Assembly: GCF_030065885.1 (NCBI RefSeq)
Contig: NZ_JASJCS010000030.1
Span: 1-46,814 of the forward strand
DNA length: 46,814 bases
Direction of reading: 5' to 3'
Source of the DNA: Ilumatobacter sp.
GTDB lineage: Bacteria; Actinomycetota; Acidimicrobiia; Acidimicrobiales; Ilumatobacteraceae
Shown: piece by piece, positions 5,463-46,333 of the stretch
Numbering within the stretch: position 1 is the first letter of the stretch
Layout: every line of letters starts with the position of its first letter
Notes under the pieces: model-generated
Told to the model about the DNA's origin: nothing
Seen by the model: the letters and a program-made list of their open reading frames with translations, nothing else
Database searches by the model: none
Made by a program: the position numbers and the translations under genes

Positions 5463-5600
5463 GTGCCGGACATCGGGCACCTCGTGAAGTCGGGCCTTTC
5501 CGCCGGCATCGCCGTGCCGCTCTGCCTCCTGATCGCGGCGGCGGGGCGACGGATTCCCGGCGTCGCCCGTGTGCGCCAGCGGGTCGTCAGCCTGCTGTGA
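5463..5600 (+). CDS. Possible 45-residue membrane peptide
   Basis: A short open frame begins with GTG about 9 nt after a GGGAG sequence and encodes 45 residues with one hydrophobic stretch (SAGIAVPLCLLIAAAG) flanked by basic residues, ending RQRVVSLL. It lies 66 bp downstream of mutY and its last 14 bases overlap the end of the convergent selenoprotein gene. It fills the only gap between mutY and that gene (5397-5586), where I see no other signal. No family is recognised. It could be chance. Confidence 0.25.
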   Translation: MPDIGHLVKSGLSAGIAVPLCLLIAAAGRRIPGVARVRQRVVSLL

Positions 5601-6108
5601 TCTGGCCGACGATGTCGTCGAAGGCGGCGTCGGCGTAGGCGACCATCTCGTCGTCGGTGCGGTCCTGGATCGGGTGCGGCGTGAAGACGCGCGCCATCGC
5701 CGAGTAGCCGAGCGACTTGGACTGCGACTCGGCCGCGGTCACGAACTCGTTCGACGCGACGAACATCCCCGGGATGCCGCGGATCTCGAGGTCGCTGATG
5801 TCGTGCACACTGCACGACGTGCAGCTGCCTCAATCGGCAAGCGCTTCGATGACCACCTGACACTCGGTCGCGATCTGGTGGCGCAGGTCGACGGGTGCCG
5901 GCTTGGCGAACGTCGGCTTGCGGTAGCGCTTGACCTTCGCGCCGACCTCGGTCAGGCGCTGCTCGATCCGGTCGAGGAAGACGTCGCCGCGCGGCTTGGA
6001 GATGTCGAGCAGCCCGACGGTCAGCCCCGAGAGCGAGGCCGGGCGGGCGAGGCGCGCTCGCTCGGCGACGGTCTGCTCGCCGGTCGGGTCGAGAATCGTC
6101 TGTGCCAT
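5587..6108 (-). CDS. UGSC-motif selenoprotein (in-frame UGA read as selenocysteine)
   Basis: Read through one UGA, this frame encodes 173 residues. The UGA is codon 93 (5832-5830) and gives the sequence ALAD-U-GSCTSCSVHDISDLE, exactly the U-G-S-C motif known from a selenoprotein family reported in marine metagenomes. Sequence continues as one coherent protein on both sides: an N-terminal alpha/beta-looking domain (SLSGLTVGLLDISKPRGDVFLDRIEQRL) and a C-terminal half (IRGIPGMFVASNEFVTAAESQ). Codon use and GC content do not change at the UGA. A perfect 8-bp hairpin lies 11 nt after the UGA, as expected for a bacterial SECIS. The start has a good ribosome site (AGGGGG, 5 nt before ATG). It follows the thioredoxin-fusion gene by 22 bp, probably in one operon. 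The Sec/Cys cluster suggests a redox or electrophile-handling role; the reaction is unknown. The alternative is two short frames split by a nonsense mutation, which I think unlikely. selA, selB, selC and selD are not in this window. Confidence 0.85.
5800..5818 (-). promoter_or_regulatory. Bacterial SECIS hairpin for UGA codon at 5830-5832
   Basis: On the minus strand GTCGTGCA and TGCACGAC form a perfect 8-bp stem closed by a 3-nt loop GTG. The stem starts 11 nt after the UGA and the loop begins 20 nt after it, with G as first loop base. Published descriptions of bacterial SECIS elements call for a stem-loop close downstream of UGA with a G in the first or second loop position, read by SelB. 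It lies within coding sequence, and its bases encode part of SCSVHDI. Confidence 0.75.
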
Positions 6109-6130: not shown

Positions 6131-7600
6131 TCAGTATCGCACTTCGCGGGTGACCGGCTTCGAACCCATCTCGCCGTTCACCCAGCCCGGGATCACCATC
6201 GAGAACAGGCCGGCGCCGCCGCCGCTGTACGCGAGCATCAGGCCGTCGGGACGGAACTTCGGCAGGTTGACCGGGCCATCTGCCGTGTCCGGCGCGAGGA
6301 AGCCGCTCGCCGACTGGGTCGGGACGCCCTCGGCGATCTCGCCGGCCCCGCGGGCGAGCTCGCCGATCGGCGTGGTGAGCCGCATGTGCAGTTCGAACAG
6401 GATCCGGTCGCGATCCCAACCGGCCTCGGCGAAGACCCTGGCGTGCTCGGGGCCCATGACGACGATCGCGTCGAAGGCCATGACGAGCTTGTGGTGGTGC
6501 ATCGCCTGGAGCTGGTGGGCGAGCGAGTTGGCGAGGCTCTCGGGCGTCCGCGACAGCTGATCGACCATGCCCCTCGGTCCCTCGCCTGCGAACAGGGTGA
6601 CGGCGTCGACGCCGGGATCGACGCCGTGTTGGCCGGCCAGCGTGCCGTAGGGCGAGTCGGCGTCATTCTCGGCGAAGCAGAAGCTCAGCTTGCCGGGGTT
6701 GCCGTGTGCGGCGCGGTCGACCTCGCCGGGCCGGCCGCCGCCGATGTTGCGGATCACGAGCTGGAGCGCACGCCCGATGGTCGAGTTGGCACGGTTGCCC
6801 TGACCGAGCGCGTTGATGCCCGAGTTCATGCCGATCGCCCGCGTGCCGGGCCCGCTGCAGATCACGACGGGCCCGACCGGCATCGTCGTCGCCAGCAGCC
6901 CGTGCATGTTGAACTCGTCGTTGCACGCCGCCTCGACCGCCGTCAGCACCCACGGCAGGTACTCGGGGAGGCAGCCGGCCATCACCGCCGCGATCGCGAC
7001 CTTCTCGACCGACGCGTGGACGAGGTCGGGCGGCACGGTCGCGACGATCTCGTCGGGAGCCCGTGACGTGCCGGTCAACATCGCCAGCACGCGCTCCTCG
7101 GTCGGCGGCACGACGGGAAGGCCGTCGCTCCAGCCGCGCGTGAACATCATCTCGACGGGATCCTCGAGCTCGGCGACCTCGATCCGCCGTGACCGCAGCA
7201 CGCTGCCACCGTGTCGTGCCCGCAGCTCGTCGACGAGGTCCGGGTCGACGCTCCGCGAGCCGCAGCCGGGACGCATCGCCGGCAACCCTCCACCGAGGTC
7301 GTCGATGCCGGTGAACTCGCGCCACGCGTCACGCGACCAGCCGAACGTGCGGTCGACCTCGGCGCCGTCCTCGACCCGGATCAGCGTCGGCACGGTCTCG
7401 ATGTCGTGGTGCCAGCTCACCCCGAGATCGACGTCGTGGATCGCCAGCGGGTCACCGGGGAACGCCGGATCGTCCTGGGTGTAGACGACGAGGTCGCGCG
7501 CTGCCGCGATCTCCCTGAGCGCCGGCACGATCGTCTGGCACGTCTCGCAGTCCCTCTTGACGATCGCCACGAGTCCGTCGGGCAGCGTCGGCTTGCTCAT
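6131..7600 (-). CDS. Thioredoxin-fold protein fused to large unknown domain; operon partner of the selenoprotein
   Basis: A 489-residue protein. Residues 1-105 look like a thioredoxin fold: C18-E-T-C21 in KRDCETCQTIVPAL, and a cis-proline-type VPTLIRV near residue 80. Residues about 125-489 form a second domain I do not recognise, with conserved-looking Gly-rich and polar patches (FTRGWSDGLPVVPPTEERV, GPVVICSGPGTRAIGMNSG, HHHKLVMAFDAIVVMGPEHARVF). The stop is 22 bp before the selenoprotein start on the same strand, so the two are likely made together, and the CxxC domain could reduce the Sec/Cys centre of its neighbour. That role is inference. ATG at 7600 is chosen because a TACCGT box ends 6 nt upstream; an in-frame ATG lies 24 nt further up. 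Confidence 0.75.
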   Translation of the reverse strand: MSKPTLPDGLVAIVKRDCETCQTIVPALREIAAARDLVVYTQDDPAFPGDPLAIHDVDLGVSWHHDIETVPTLIRVEDGAEVDRTFGWSRDAWREFTGIDDLGGGLPAMRPGCGSRSVDPDLVDELRARHGGSVLRSRRIEVAELEDPVEMMFTRGWSDGLPVVPPTEERVLAMLTGTSRAPDEIVATVPPDLVHASVEKVAIAAVMAGCLPEYLPWVLTAVEAACNDEFNMHGLLATTMPVGPVVICSGPGTRAIGMNSGINALGQGNRANSTIGRALQLVIRNIGGGRPGEVDRAAHGNPGKLSFCFAENDADSPYGTLAGQHGVDPGVDAVTLFAGEGPRGMVDQLSRTPESLANSLAHQLQAMHHHKLVMAFDAIVVMGPEHARVFAEAGWDRDRILFELHMRLTTPIGELARGAGEIAEGVPTQSASGFLAPDTADGPVNLPKFRPDGLMLAYSGGGAGLFSMVIPGWVNGEMGSKPVTREVRY

Positions 7601-7631: not shown

Positions 7632-8453
7632 TCACGACCCGGGATGGACGACCGGGAAGCGCTCGTCGTCGAGGGCGTCCCCCGGCACCAGACCCGCAGG
7701 ATCGAACGGCGGCGACACCTGCCAGGGTCGCTCGGCCCAGACCGCGTCGTCGCCGACCCATCGCAGGCTCACGGCTCGGCGTCGCGTCGTCGTCGACGGG
7801 TTGCCCGGCGCGTCGTGAAGCGTGCGGTAGTGGAACACGATCACGTCACCCGGGTCGGTGTCGAAGCTGACGACCCGGCGCCGATCGGGGTCCTCGGCGA
7901 TCAGCGCATCGATGTCGGGCAGGAGCTCGTACCGGCCGCTCTCCGCGGCGTACGGCGTGTGGTCGACGAACTTACGCGGGATGAACCAGCGGTCCCAGCG
8001 GTGGGAGCCGGCGAGGAAGCGCATGGCGGTGTCGGCCGGCACCGGGTCGAGGGCGATCCACATGCTGACGCTCTGATCGCCGTCGACGCAGTAGTAGGGC
8101 TGGTCGTGGTGCCACGGTGTGCGCTCGGTGGCCCCGGGCTCCTTGACGAGCACGTGCTCGTGGAAGAAGCGGGCGGTCCGGGAACCCATCAGCTGCGAGG
8201 CGACCATCGCCAGGCTGCCCTCGCGGACGATCCGCTCGTACTCGGGCACCGACCGCCAGGTGACGTAGTCGCTCCAGAACCCGTCCGACTCGTCGGGGTT
8301 CGTGTACCAGTGCGACCATTCGCTGGGGTGCGTGCGGTTGTGCTCGACGCCGGCGGCGAGCTCGTCGACCCACGACTCGGGCAGCAGCTGCCGCAGCACG
8401 GTGGCGCCGTCACGCCGGAACTCCTCGATCTCGAGATCGACGATCCTCGTCAC
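7632..8453 (-). CDS. Phytanoyl-CoA dioxygenase (PhyH) family protein
   Basis: A 273-residue Fe(II)/2-oxoglutarate-dependent oxygenase of the PhyH family. The iron ligands are seen as H-x-D in TPWHHDQPYYCVDGD and the distal His in VFHYRTLHDAPGN; the Arg that binds 2-oxoglutarate is probably in TRRRAVSLRW. Family members hydroxylate lipids, small acids or halogenated and alkylated compounds in the cytoplasm. The start is GTG at 8453, only 4 bp after the stop of the reductive-dehalogenase-like gene, so the two form an operon and may act on the same compound. The published open frame extends further upstream but that part overlaps the preceding gene and is spurious. Confidence 0.82.
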   Translation of the reverse strand: MTRIVDLEIEEFRRDGATVLRQLLPESWVDELAAGVEHNRTHPSEWSHWYTNPDESDGFWSDYVTWRSVPEYERIVREGSLAMVASQLMGSRTARFFHEHVLVKEPGATERTPWHHDQPYYCVDGDQSVSMWIALDPVPADTAMRFLAGSHRWDRWFIPRKFVDHTPYAAESGRYELLPDIDALIAEDPDRRRVVSFDTDPGDVIVFHYRTLHDAPGNPSTTTRRRAVSLRWVGDDAVWAERPWQVSPPFDPAGLVPGDALDDERFPVVHPGS

Positions 8454-8457
8454 GTCG

Positions 8458-9624
8458 CTACTCTCGCGCGCCGCCGGTCCGTTCGGGCCACCAGTGCTTC
8501 GGGAGCAGGCGCTTCCCGTGGCCCGCGCGGTCGGCGAGCCGCAGGGCGAGCCGCGGCGCACGCGACGCGAGCTTCACCCACCAGCGGTTCGCCGGCTTCG
8601 AGTAATCGCGGTTGTACGGGCACACGCGGATGCAGACCGAGCAGTCGGTGTTGACCTTGGTCCAGTAGCCGAAGCACTTCTCGCCGTCGACCGACCACTT
8701 CTCGACGCCGATCAGGTTCGAGCGGTTGTGGCGCGCGGCCGACGGCTCGCCGCCGGGGATCGCCTTCGCCGGGCAGGCGTCGGTGCAGCGCCGGCACCCG
8801 TCGCAGAACCGTTCCACACCGAACGAGTGGGGGTGGTCGCGCGCGAGGGGCAGGTCGGTGAAGATCTTGCCCAGGCGCAAGCGTGGGCCGAACTCCGGCG
8901 TGATCAGCAGCCCGTGCCGCCCGTACTCGCCGAGCCCGGCCTCGAGCGCAAGAGGGATCGCCAGCGCGGTGTCGTTCATCGACGGGACGGCTTCGTAGCC
9001 GAGGTTGCGGAGGTACTGCGCGATCGTGAGCAGCACGACCGAGTCGAGCGAGTACCCCATGCCGGTCGCCGTGCCGGCCAGCGCCGACGGCGCGGTGCGG
9101 GTGAGCTCGTGGTCCATCGACTGCCCGATCACGATGACGCTGGTCAGCCCCTCCGGCAGGTCGTTCGGCTTCGGACCGCCGCGCTGCACCGAGAACCGCT
9201 CGGTGTAGACCCACCGCTCGTCGAACGGTGCGATCCCGACGAGGTCGGCACCCACGACCTTCGCGACGTGCTTGACGTCGCTCGCCGCGGCGGCGGCTGA
9301 CTCGAACTCGATCCGCTCGTCGGCGCCGTCGCGCAGCATCGACAGCGGGTCGAGGAACCCGTCGCGACGGTCGTCGGTCTCGAACATCTCGGCGAAGGTG
9401 TCGGTGACGTGCCACGACGCGTTGCGGAGCGCATAGTCGTGCTGGGTGTAGCCGGGCGCGGCCCGCCACTCCGTCAGCGGCCGGCGATAGGTCGAGTAGA
9501 AGCGATCGGCCGCCTCGGAGCGGATCTCGGGGTCCCACCTCGAGCGAGAGAACACGTCGTCGACCTGCGAGAACCGCTCGAACGAGTCGAGCACCCGGTA
9601 CCGCCGGTGCGAAGCGTTGCGCAT
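8458..9624 (-). CDS. Reductive-dehalogenase-like corrinoid/[4Fe-4S] protein, cytosolic
   Basis: A 388-residue protein with the reductive dehalogenase (RdhA) layout: a corrinoid-binding nitroreductase-like core (NDTALAIPLALEAGLGEYGRHGLLITPEFGPRLR and GKIFTDLPL are highly characteristic) and two ferredoxin clusters, C274-x2-C277-x2-C280-x3-C284-P and C317-x10-C328-x2-C331-x3-C335-P. There is no Tat signal, so it is not a membrane-facing respiratory enzyme; it resembles the soluble aerobic, catabolic type or a QueG-like relative. The RdhA-type second cluster (KWSVDGEKCFGYWTKVNTDC) argues for RdhA over QueG. No RdhB anchor is present. The reaction (removal of halide or another corrinoid chemistry) is inferred from the family only. 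The next gene, PhyH, starts 4 bp after its stop. Confidence 0.78.
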   Translation of the reverse strand: MRNASHRRYRVLDSFERFSQVDDVFSRSRWDPEIRSEAADRFYSTYRRPLTEWRAAPGYTQHDYALRNASWHVTDTFAEMFETDDRRDGFLDPLSMLRDGADERIEFESAAAAASDVKHVAKVVGADLVGIAPFDERWVYTERFSVQRGGPKPNDLPEGLTSVIVIGQSMDHELTRTAPSALAGTATGMGYSLDSVVLLTIAQYLRNLGYEAVPSMNDTALAIPLALEAGLGEYGRHGLLITPEFGPRLRLGKIFTDLPLARDHPHSFGVERFCDGCRRCTDACPAKAIPGGEPSAARHNRSNLIGVEKWSVDGEKCFGYWTKVNTDCSVCIRVCPYNRDYSKPANRWWVKLASRAPRLALRLADRAGHGKRLLPKHWWPERTGGARE

Positions 9625-42090: not shown

Positions 42091-43236
42091 CTACATCACG
42101 GTCGTACGGATGAGGTGGACGCCGGGGCGGTAGGCGAGGTGGTGGTGGCTCGGGGCGTCGAGCACGACCGCGTGGCCGGCACATCCGGGTGACAACCGAC
42201 CGACGTCGTTGCGCCGCAACGCCCGTGCGCCCCCGCTGGTTGCTGCTCGCACGGCCTCGTCGATCGTCATCCGGAGGTCGCGGACGGCGAGCGCGATGCA
42301 GAACGGGATCGACGTGGTGTAGCTCGAACCCGGATTGCAGTTCGACGCGATCGCGACCTGCACGCCGGCGTCGATCGCACGCCGAGCATCCGGGTACGGC
42401 TGGCGCGTCGAGAAGTCGGATGCGGGGAGGAACGTCGCCACCGTGTCGCTCTCGGCGAGTGCCTCGATGTCGTCGTCGGAGAGGTACGTGCAGTGGTCGA
42501 CGGACGCGCAGCCGGCCTCGACGGCGAGCTGGACACCGGGCCCGTGGCCGAGCTGGTTCCCGTGCAGCCGCAGTCCGAGTCCCGCCGCTCTGCCAGCGTC
42601 GAGGACCCGCCGGCACTGGTCGGCATCGAACGCGCCCGTCTCGCAGAACGCGTCGATCCAGCGCGTGCGGCTCGCCGCGGCAGCCAGCATCTCGCCGCAG
42701 ACGAGGTCGATGTAGTCGTCGGGCCGGCCGGCGAACTCGTGCGGCACGAGGTGGGCGCCGAGCAGCGTGGTGTCCGCCGTGAACTCGCGTGCGACGTCGA
42801 GGATCCGGAGCTCGGTGGCGACGTCGAGCCCGTATCCCGACTTGATCTCGACCGTCGTCGTGCCGTGGCGGCGCGCTTCGGCGACGCGTTCACGCGTGAG
42901 CTGCGACAGCGCTTCGGTCGAGGCGGCACGGGTGGCCGCCGTCGTGACGGCGATCCCGCCACCGTCGTACGGCTGGCCGGCCATGCGAGCGCTGAACTCG
43001 GCTCCGCGGTCGCCCGCGAACACCAGGTGGGTGTGTGAGTCGACGAAGCCGGGCAGCACGCATGCGCCGTCGGCGTCGATGCGCTCGTCGGCGATCGCGC
43101 CCGAGGGTTCGATGGCCTCGACGACGCCTTCGCTGATGACGACCGATGCGTCGCGCACGATGCCCAGCGGTCCGGCGCCCAGCTCGGGGTCGTTCGTGAC
43201 GAGCGATCCGATGCGGTCGATGACGAGCGTGCTCAC
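42091..43236 (-). CDS. hutI: Imidazolonepropionase
   Basis: A 381-residue amidohydrolase for the third step of histidine breakdown, hydrolysing imidazolone-5-propanoate to N-formimino-L-glutamate. Metal-binding HTH is in [44 protein letters not shown] and [15 protein letters not shown] are diagnostic of HutI. Length is near normal (about 400). The start is GTG at 43236, overlapping the stop of hutF by 4 bp. It ends the hutU-hutF-hutI unit. Confidence 0.95.
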
Positions 43237-44573
43237 GGCGTGAGCTCCTCGATGGCGGCCGGCATCTCGGTGGCGACGTCGACGGTGGCGTGCCGGCGGT
43301 CGGCGACGACGTCGACCCCGTCGATCGTGACGTGGGTGACGTCGGCGGCGCCCGCAGCGAACACGACCGCGGTGAGGTCCGGTGCGAGTGTGGCGCCCGC
43401 GGTACGCGGCGTCGAGAGCGACACCGTCACGAGATCGGCGCGCTGACCGGCGTCGATGGATCCTGCGTCGTCCCAGCCGAGGGCCTGATGACCCGCGTGC
43501 ATCGTCGCCGCCAGGTCGCCGGCGTCGAAGACGCCGCGTGCTCCGGTCACCAGACGTTCGTGCAGCTCGATCAGTCGCGCCTCCTCGAACGGATCGACGA
43601 CGGCATGCGAGTCGCTGCCGATCGCGAGCGTCACCCCGGCACGTGCGAGGCGAGAGGCCGGTCCGACGCCGTCGCCCAGGTCGCGCTCGGTCGTCGGGCA
43701 CAGGCATACGGCGGCGTCCGCGCGCCCGAGCGCGTCGACGTCGCCGTCGGTCGCATGCGTGGCGTGCACTGCGGTGAACGTCGGTGTGACGGCGCCCGCG
43801 CGATCGAACACTTCGGTGGGTGAGCTCGCGTGTGCTGCGTGGCAGGCCTCGTTCTCGGCGCGTTGCTCGGAGACATGCGCGTGCAGCGGAGCGCCGCCCG
43901 CCCATTCGCCCACCGCAGCGATCGCGGCGGGATCGACTGCGCGCACCGAATGGACGGCGGCACCGATCCGGAGATGCGGCGCCGGCGCGACCGCGGCGAC
44001 CCGCTCGGCCCACCCGTCGAACGAGCCATCGCCGAACCGACGTTGTGCGCCCTCGAGCGGCCGGTACCCCCCGGCGTCGAGGCCGCCGTGCAGGTAGATC
44101 GTGTCGAGCAACGTGATGCGCACGCCGGCGTCGCGCGCTGCCTCGACCAGCGCCAGCCCCATCGCGTTCGGTTCGGCATAGGGCGAGCCGTCGGCCTGGT
44201 GGTGCACGTAGTGGAATTCGCCGACGGCGGTGAACCCTGCGAGGGTCATCTCGGCGAAGACGGCACGGGCGAGCCGGTGGTACCGGTCGGGGTCGAGCGC
44301 CTCGGCGATCGCGTACATCTGCTCACGCCACGTCCAGAACGATCCGCGCCCGGTCTGGCTGCGATGGCGCAGCGCACGGTGGAACGCGTGGCTGTGGGTG
44401 TTGGCCGCCCCCGGCAGCGTGATGCCGGCACGACGGTCGCCGCCCGTCTGCGGCTCGGTGTCCGTCGTGACGGTCGTGCACCGACCGCCGGCCACCTCGA
44501 TCGTGACACCTTCGGCGACGCCGGCCGGCAACACGGCGTACTCGCACCAGATCAACCTGTCGGTCGACGTCAT
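43233..44573 (-). CDS. hutF: Formimidoylglutamate deiminase
   Basis: A 446-residue amidohydrolase that converts N-formimino-L-glutamate into N-formyl-L-glutamate and ammonia. [12 protein letters not shown] carries the metal-binding His pair; [23 protein letters not shown], and [18 protein letters not shown] are typical of HutF. Presence of HutF implies the two-step (HutF plus HutG) route to glutamate instead of direct HutG cleavage. hutG is not in the window. hutF starts 12 bp after hutU and overlaps hutI by 4 bp. Confidence 0.93.
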
Positions 44574-44585
44574 CGTCTCGGCTCC

Positions 44586-46244
<1,659 letters not shown>

Positions 46245-46273
46245 GGCGGCCTCCTCCACACGGCGGCTCTTGC

Positions 46274-46303
46274 AGTGTCTCCCGAGCCCGCCTACGTTGT
46301 CAA
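46274..46303 (-). promoter_or_regulatory. Likely hutU promoter
   Basis: TTGACA (46303-46298) and GACACT (46279-46274) on the minus strand are 18 bp apart. The -35 box is consensus and the -10 weak. It overlaps the palindrome at 46294-46310, so a regulator bound there would block or control it. Confidence 0.5.
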
Positions 46304-46333
46304 CCAACGTCAAGAGATGTCATGGAGTGACAT
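46294..46333. promoter_or_regulatory. Twin palindromic operators between hutU and the IclR gene
   Basis: Two 17-bp palindromes of the same 6-5-6 layout: ACGTTG-tcaac-CAACGT (46294-46310) and ATGTCA-tggag-TGACAT (46317-46333). Their centres are 23 bp apart, close to two helical turns, so a tetrameric regulator could hold both. They lie in the divergent region between hutU and the IclR-family gene, the usual site for autoregulation and control of the catabolic genes. Confidence 0.6.

Follow-up and report, generated by a model that had tools for sequence, protein, structure and literature searches.

The window, a stretch of 46,814 nucleotides from an Ilumatobacter sp. genome, carries two genes on the reverse strand that form a near-obligate pair. 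The downstream one (5587..6108) encodes a UGSC selenoprotein of 173 amino acids, in which the UGA codon at 5830..5832 is read as selenocysteine (Sec) residue 93 of the conserved motif U93-G-S-C96. The other, which we call the partner gene (6131..7600), encodes 489 amino acids and lies 22 nt 5' of the UGSC gene; it comprises a thioredoxin-like domain, a PGCGS linker and an unnamed core. The first-pass annotation, made from the letters of the window alone, had fused two short frames through the in-frame UGA at 5832-5830, and its coordinates, frame and motif were borne out. Read from 6108 to 5590 with TGA as U, the gene gives 173 residues including ALAD-U93-GSCTSCSVHD and terminates at the TGA at 5589-5587. 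The ribosome site claimed for the first frame is there as well, as AAGGGGG just 5' of the ATG, and the codons on both sides of the UGA are equally GC-rich, with a third-position GC of 0.91 before and 0.96 after it.

In a window as rich in GC as this one, an uninterrupted frame by itself says little, since 76 of its 821 TGA triplets are equally open, preceded by 92 or more open codons and followed by 80 or more. It is membership in the UGSC family that makes the gene more than a chance reading. Its score reaches 164.4 bits with NF041046, 'UGSC family (seleno)protein', where the cut-off is 125, and 153.4 bits with PF24696, where the cut-off is 25, so the family name chosen in the first-pass annotation was correct. 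U93-G-S-C96 is an instance of [UC]-G-[SA]-C, and positions 93, 94 and 96 are invariant across 30 diverse sequences if Sec is counted as Cys. With scores above both cut-offs, Sec in UGSC and the same length, the window protein is a member of the UGSC family of the metagenome surveys. UGSC itself is of a known kind, an uncharacterised family.

The genome of the window (5.04 Mb in 200 contigs, 90.7% complete, 5.06% contamination) has all four genes that a check for Sec insertion calls for: selB (277 bits) with the adjoining selA (402 bits), a tRNA-Sec with the anticodon TCA (UCA), found at 66.6 bits with Rfam and in agreement by ARAGORN, and selD (377 bits; L049, contig C37). The selD gene contains one in-frame TGA, so the selenophosphate synthetase is probably a selenoprotein too. 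Contamination of the assembly is an unlikely cause of these findings, because a UGSC gene with UGA and selA are likewise present in G031, a genome of the same genus assembled as a single contig. Of the 23 genomes in which a UGSC above the cut-off bears a UGA, 22 have selA above its cut-off, as do one of four genomes with only stop-free UGSC and four of 20 UGSC-free genomes tested out of 367 without a match; these 20 are the nearest kin and were not chosen at random. The counts omit two genomes whose UGSC matches fall below the cut-off, both of which have selA. The one exception among the 23 is G036 (L058), where a UGA-bearing UGSC occurs and selA was unmatched; this genome is listed as 94% complete, so that an assembly gap is a possible reason.

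Codon 93 was compared across 121 loci, comprising the window, 80 partner relatives and 40 loci from Actinomycetota genomes. The 80 are the best of at least 548 relatives found by scanning species genomes with the partner gene, and 70 of them have the UGSC gene, with TGA at residue 93 in 67, TAG in two and one sequence cut before the residue. In the remaining 10 of these best 80, UGSC is absent from the flanking DNA examined, which a contig end explains in three. No residue-93 codon was obtained from 13 of the 121 loci, in which UGSC is absent from the flank, cut off or too divergent for tblastn. The 108 readable genes, window included, have TGA in 101, TAG in two and Cys (TGC or TGT) in five, and nothing else, so the alignment at this position contains no unrelated residues. 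All UGSC genes with Cys at residue 93 are distant, at 30-34% identity.

The two TAG codons belong to Geodermatophilus obscurus and Candidatus Blastococcus massiliensis (L112, 7392-7898; L119, 7392-7901), and both genomes have tRNA-Sec matches with the anticodon CTA, which ARAGORN labels tRNA-Pyl. UAG-coded UGSC has already been reported in Geodermatophilaceae, as mentioned in PMC5330540 (citing its ref. 56), and the two genes agree with this in TAG codon and anticodon CTA, with no difference seen. The machinery and the residue-93 codons both support the Sec insertion that the first-pass annotation had proposed. Judged by its sequence, the window gene is very probably a genuine member of the known UGSC selenoprotein family, with Sec at residue 93.

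A SECIS-like hairpin of 7-8 bp (5800..5818, reverse strand) follows the UGA, where it had been noticed before, with the G of its loop 20 nt after the codon. It starts 12 nt 3' of the UGA, the first pair being at 5818 and the last at 5800. Its folding has a z-score of -2.25, and 3 of 200 shuffles fold equally well. All seven pairs arise in 10.5% of random synonymous codings with the codon usage of the window, so a single copy of the hairpin proves little. Across the family, all seven pairs are kept in 75 of 103 Sec-coding genes compared with none of the five Cys-coding ones. In 65 of the 103 sequences, pairing holds for 92.1% of cells, and for no more than 50.5% once the register is slid; five of the seven pairs show double changes, and none of 500 shuffles matches the covariation score. 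The covariation itself is not strong, since a slide of +2 scores 0.143 against 0.166 in register and a slide of +3 has 17 double-change cells against 15. Related sequences in these statistics are not independent of each other. An Rfam scan of the window gave no match at gathering scores.

The thioredoxin-like domain of the partner spans approximately residues 1-105 (7286..7600, reverse strand) and carries C18-E-T-C21. Both cysteines are invariant in 43 aligned sequences, and three distant partners have CPTS in place of CxxC. With this CxxC and a predicted thioredoxin fold, residues 1-105 are best described as a putative thioredoxin-like domain; in the structure search, most of the best 50 of 458 PDB rows are thioredoxins or thioredoxin-like proteins, with a best E of 3.6e-3 and, among these 50, no Foldseek row at E 0.001 or better. 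The partner has no Pfam match, and its only NCBIfam match is a sub-threshold one to thioredoxin, far below the thioredoxin cut-off. Cys113 of the PGCGS linker (7262..7264, reverse strand) is TGC here and UGA in 19 relatives. The core, of about 340 residues (150-489, limits approximate; 6134..7153, reverse strand), contains the motifs DGLPVVPPT, MAGC (C210) and GK....C..E (GK304..C308..E311) as well as invariant D, K, E and R residues, and it looks enzymatic as far as such residues can suggest. Sequence searches of the core against Pfam, NCBIfam and PDB gave no convincing match. Several candidates were dismissed: scattered partner hits, among them TraF, thioredoxin and isolated weak matches, either fall in the thioredoxin part or appear to be fortuitous, a cyclic-amide-hydrolase fold for the core comes from a weak row (rank 45, probability 0.33) that we do not believe, and a comparison of the partner with the PrdB-like protein described below was negative.

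The genome of the window has a second, divergent UGSC gene with one TGA (L018 / L051, contig C11). It is likewise preceded by a partner core, here without the thioredoxin domain, for which the open frame of 376 amino acids leaves no room. In many paralogous pairs elsewhere, too, neither the thioredoxin part nor PGCGS could be matched.

UGSC and the partner are a near-obligate pair. In a sample of 396 genomes of the phylum, UGSC was found above the cut-off in 27, all 27 of which have the partner, and a strong partner match (E <1e-30) was found in 28, of which 27 have UGSC; the latter count leaves out 12 of 40 genomes whose sole match is weak (E 4e-8 or worse). Both genes could be placed in 123 loci (126 rows, with L145, L150 and L164 counted twice). 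They lie on the same strand with the partner first in 115, on the same strand with UGSC first in six, and divergently in two. At one locus (L164) they are 5 kb apart, and natural fusions of UGSC and partner occur in three (L083, L085 and L087).

Besides these pairs, there are seven partner loci with flanking DNA in which UGSC was not found in that flank. Six partners (L126, L137, L153, L158, L163 and L166) form one well-supported clade of full partners that keep PGCGS and have no UGSC in the flank, and L099 is similar in being a full partner whose flank has no UGSC. In a sample of 398 genomes of Pseudomonadota, the phylum of L145, the partner was found in five.

In three partners, two from Betaproteobacteria (L145 and L164) and one from Acidimicrobiaceae (L150), the gene has one in-frame stop, a TGA located exactly at the Cys of PGCGS, and all three genomes have a tRNA-Sec with the anticodon TCA. 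Among 397 genomes of the window's order, at least 16 more full-length partners with one TGA were found, all in one family (f120); among the matches listed, these 16 are the only full-length partners with a stop. Each of the 16 has its TGA at the PGCGS residue and a UGA-bearing UGSC gene within 5.4 kb. The Cys of PGCGS is therefore encoded by UGA at 19 loci in two lineages. On a tree of 112 partners (a quick method with SH-aLRT support and no bootstrap), the distribution of Sec takes two changes, a number that the well-supported branches already require, so Sec in the partner probably arose twice. An apparent stop in another partner (L079) was rejected as Sec, as the alignment had overrun upstream of the gene.

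A hairpin also follows the partner UGA. All of its eight pairs are present in 12 of the 19 Sec partners compared with none of 94 Cys partners, 10 of which have seven pairs. Eight pairs are kept in 15% of random synonymous codings, so the exchange of Sec and Cys is stronger evidence than the hairpin. Going by these codons, the partner is apparently a selenoprotein in its own right in two lineages besides that of the window. Two Sec-bearing partners that were scanned had no match among the NCBIfam selenoprotein models, and we recognised no entry as the partner in Table 1 of the 2026 inventory of 119 prokaryotic selenoprotein families (PMC13188914), a table in which UGSC is listed and some entries come without a motif. 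Ordinary gene calling would presumably truncate the Sec-bearing partners at the UGA.

The AlphaFold2 model of UGSC (pLDDT 92.3, pTM 0.87) shows an alternating alpha/beta arrangement with five strands, which we describe as a predicted flavodoxin-like fold. Sec93 directly follows strand 3 (85-91) and stands at the N-terminus of the helix 94-109. The best 50 of 1765 PDB rows are generic (flavodoxins, TIR domains and others), with a TM-score to the query below 0.55. The 2008 metagenome survey called UGSC likely Trx-like in its fold, in the part of PMC2398784 that deals with it; the model is unlike such a fold, and we set this assignment aside for the predicted structure. Our description differs from that of the survey in the predicted flavodoxin-like fold and in a defined near-obligate partner. 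The same part of the survey reports a fusion of UGSC with a protein named Unknown_1. It may be the same as the partner core, and our three fusions are of such a kind; that part makes no mention of Sec in Unknown_1, unlike the partner at 19 loci.

A Sec at the start of a helix after a strand is also seen in the selenoproteins GrdB and PrdB. According to the section of PMC13188914 concerned, GrdB of glycine reductase (UxxCxxC) and its homologue PrdB of proline reductase take part in reductive deamination or ring cleavage. PF07355 matched in eight of 14 chosen genomes, that of the window included, and the 10 PrdB-like loci have [UC]-P-x-C with Sec in nine and Cys in one (L207). The PrdB-like selenoprotein of the window's genome (L199, contig C133) has the motif PVUPVC and matches PF07355 positions 211-345.

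Aligning 30 diverse UGSC sequences with the 10 PrdB-like ones by hhalign gave a probability of 81.9 and E 1.1e-5, with Sec over Sec. The probability was 87.3 with the Sec motif masked and 0.3 with a reversed profile, and none of 100 column shuffles matched the score. A narrower UGSC alignment reached a probability of only 47 against GrdB/PrdB, and the PrdB-like profile matches a divergent UGSC gene in one of 120 loci (L090, E 0.0013). The profiles suggest a distant kinship between UGSC and the Sec domain of GrdB/PrdB. Further likenesses are the UxxC after a strand at a helix N-terminus in the UGSC model and the distance of 18 residues from Sec to G-[IM]-P, which UGSC shares with the PrdB-like protein encoded in the window's genome. 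UGSC differs in having no PF07355 match (the domain is absent from the 22 families matched by 30 UGSC members up to E 10), in its other partner, and in that no GrdE/PrdA-type subunit was recognised. Searching 22 partner members gave no Pfam match to such a pyruvoyl-forming proprotein subunit up to E 1, and no partner-like gene lies beside the PrdB-like genes in 10 loci (about 1.5 kb per side).

As UGSC and the partner are nearly always found together and the partner seems to contain Sec elsewhere, the two probably form one reducing enzyme. We consider it about evenly balanced whether UGSC is, by analogy, half of a two-protein, thioredoxin-coupled reductive selenoenzyme that works like GrdB/PrdB. 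In such an enzyme Sec93 would make the nucleophilic attack on a small substrate, in the manner of glycine and proline reductase, and would then join Cys96, the resolving thiol, as a selenenyl-sulfide. The partner core may bind or activate the substrate or dock UGSC, and the CxxC of the thioredoxin-like domain would re-reduce the selenenyl-sulfide through the PG(C/U)GS residue. This relay cannot be universal, because neither the thioredoxin part nor PGCGS is matched in many paralogous pairs, and CxxC is replaced by CPTS in three distant partners. The sequences themselves show the codons, the pairing of the two genes and the kinship of the profiles; the chemistry and the substrate we infer by analogy.

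A more specific version is offered tentatively, as somewhat less than an even proposition. The pair would be an undescribed two-protein analogue of glycine and proline reductase in Actinomycetota, Pseudomonadota, Myxococcota, Acidobacteriota and Chloroflexota that reductively breaks a bond between carbon and a heteroatom in organic acids, the partner would be a new selenoprotein family, and an Acidimicrobiales family and Betaproteobacteria would have two Sec in series, from the thioredoxin-like domain over PGUGS to UGSC. A GrdB-like operon is a candidate for cleaving the carbon-fluorine bond of fluoroacetate, according to the part of PMC10838667 on this operon. Within the UGSC-related literature searched, the near-obligate pair, the Sec codon of the partner in two lineages and the link to GrdB/PrdB appear to be new. 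Together they turn a protein named after a motif into a testable two-component enzyme.

UGSC might also be an oxidoreductase for thiols or peroxides in general, reduced by the partner and itself reducing no specific substrate. The UxxC motif, the thioredoxin-like domain of the partner and the likely Trx-like assignment in the survey (PMC2398784) are consistent with this, and we still regard it as unlikely: the confident UGSC model is five-strand alpha/beta with no thioredoxin in the best 50 of 1765 PDB rows, and the large partner core, in which D, K, E and R residues are invariant, has the look of an enzyme. It is decidedly improbable that the Sec and Cys residues bind a metal or metalloid for detoxification or cofactor assembly without reducing a carbon compound; several inventory families are metal-linked, as listed in Table 1 of PMC13188914, and the ten annotated neighbour-family representatives include no metal-resistance gene. 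A pseudogene with an ordinary stop, that is two separate short frames without readthrough, has next to no probability and is refuted at the sequence level by the codon-93 pattern and the Sec machinery, for although an open frame is cheap in the window and the hairpin alone is weak, the 108 genes, drawn from several phyla, have UGA in 101 and Cys in five, UAG occurs only in two genes whose genomes have tRNA-Sec with the anticodon CUA, and the machinery in the genome is complete.

The genes around the pair were compared over the same 121 loci, and no neighbour is common to most of them. SelA-family ORFs occur near the pair in the same orientation in 10 loci and selB-family ORFs in seven (one representative each annotated), as though pair and Sec machinery were passed on together. 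Same-orientation selA-family ORFs close to the pair, some together with selB, occur in L124, L133, L134, L138 and L156 and in L076 and L093-L096; they lie downstream in Pseudomonadota and upstream in Actinomycetota loci. As raw counts without background, MutY was found in 18 loci (opposite strand), an ABC ATPase in 17 and a flavin reductase in 16 (opposite strand). Acyl-CoA dehydrogenase genes are near the pair in 18 loci, 17 of the 19 ORFs pointing the same way as the pair, again a raw count without background. Other recurring neighbours are enoyl-CoA hydratase, family III CoA-transferase, thiolase and short-chain dehydrogenase genes. For the proposed reductive selenoenzyme, the acyl-CoA and CoA-transferase neighbours, as raw counts without background, hint at CoA-linked or similar organic-acid substrates.

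The operon had been put forward as a candidate new redox system in the first-pass annotation. That idea stands for UGSC and its near-obligate partner, seemingly a selenoprotein in two other lineages, and finds no support for the PhyH-like and reductive-dehalogenase-like genes further upstream, which have no ORF in a neighbour family common to at least three of the 121 loci and are given no role for this reason. In the window, the PhyH-family gene (7632-8561) adjoins the reductive-dehalogenase-like gene (8458-9624), whose product is an iron-sulfur protein of 388 amino acids with 168.6 bits against TIGR02486 (cut-off 160.35). Towards the other end, the window carries urocanase-like and imidazolonepropionase-like genes at 42091-46313, which look like a putative histidine-utilisation cluster.
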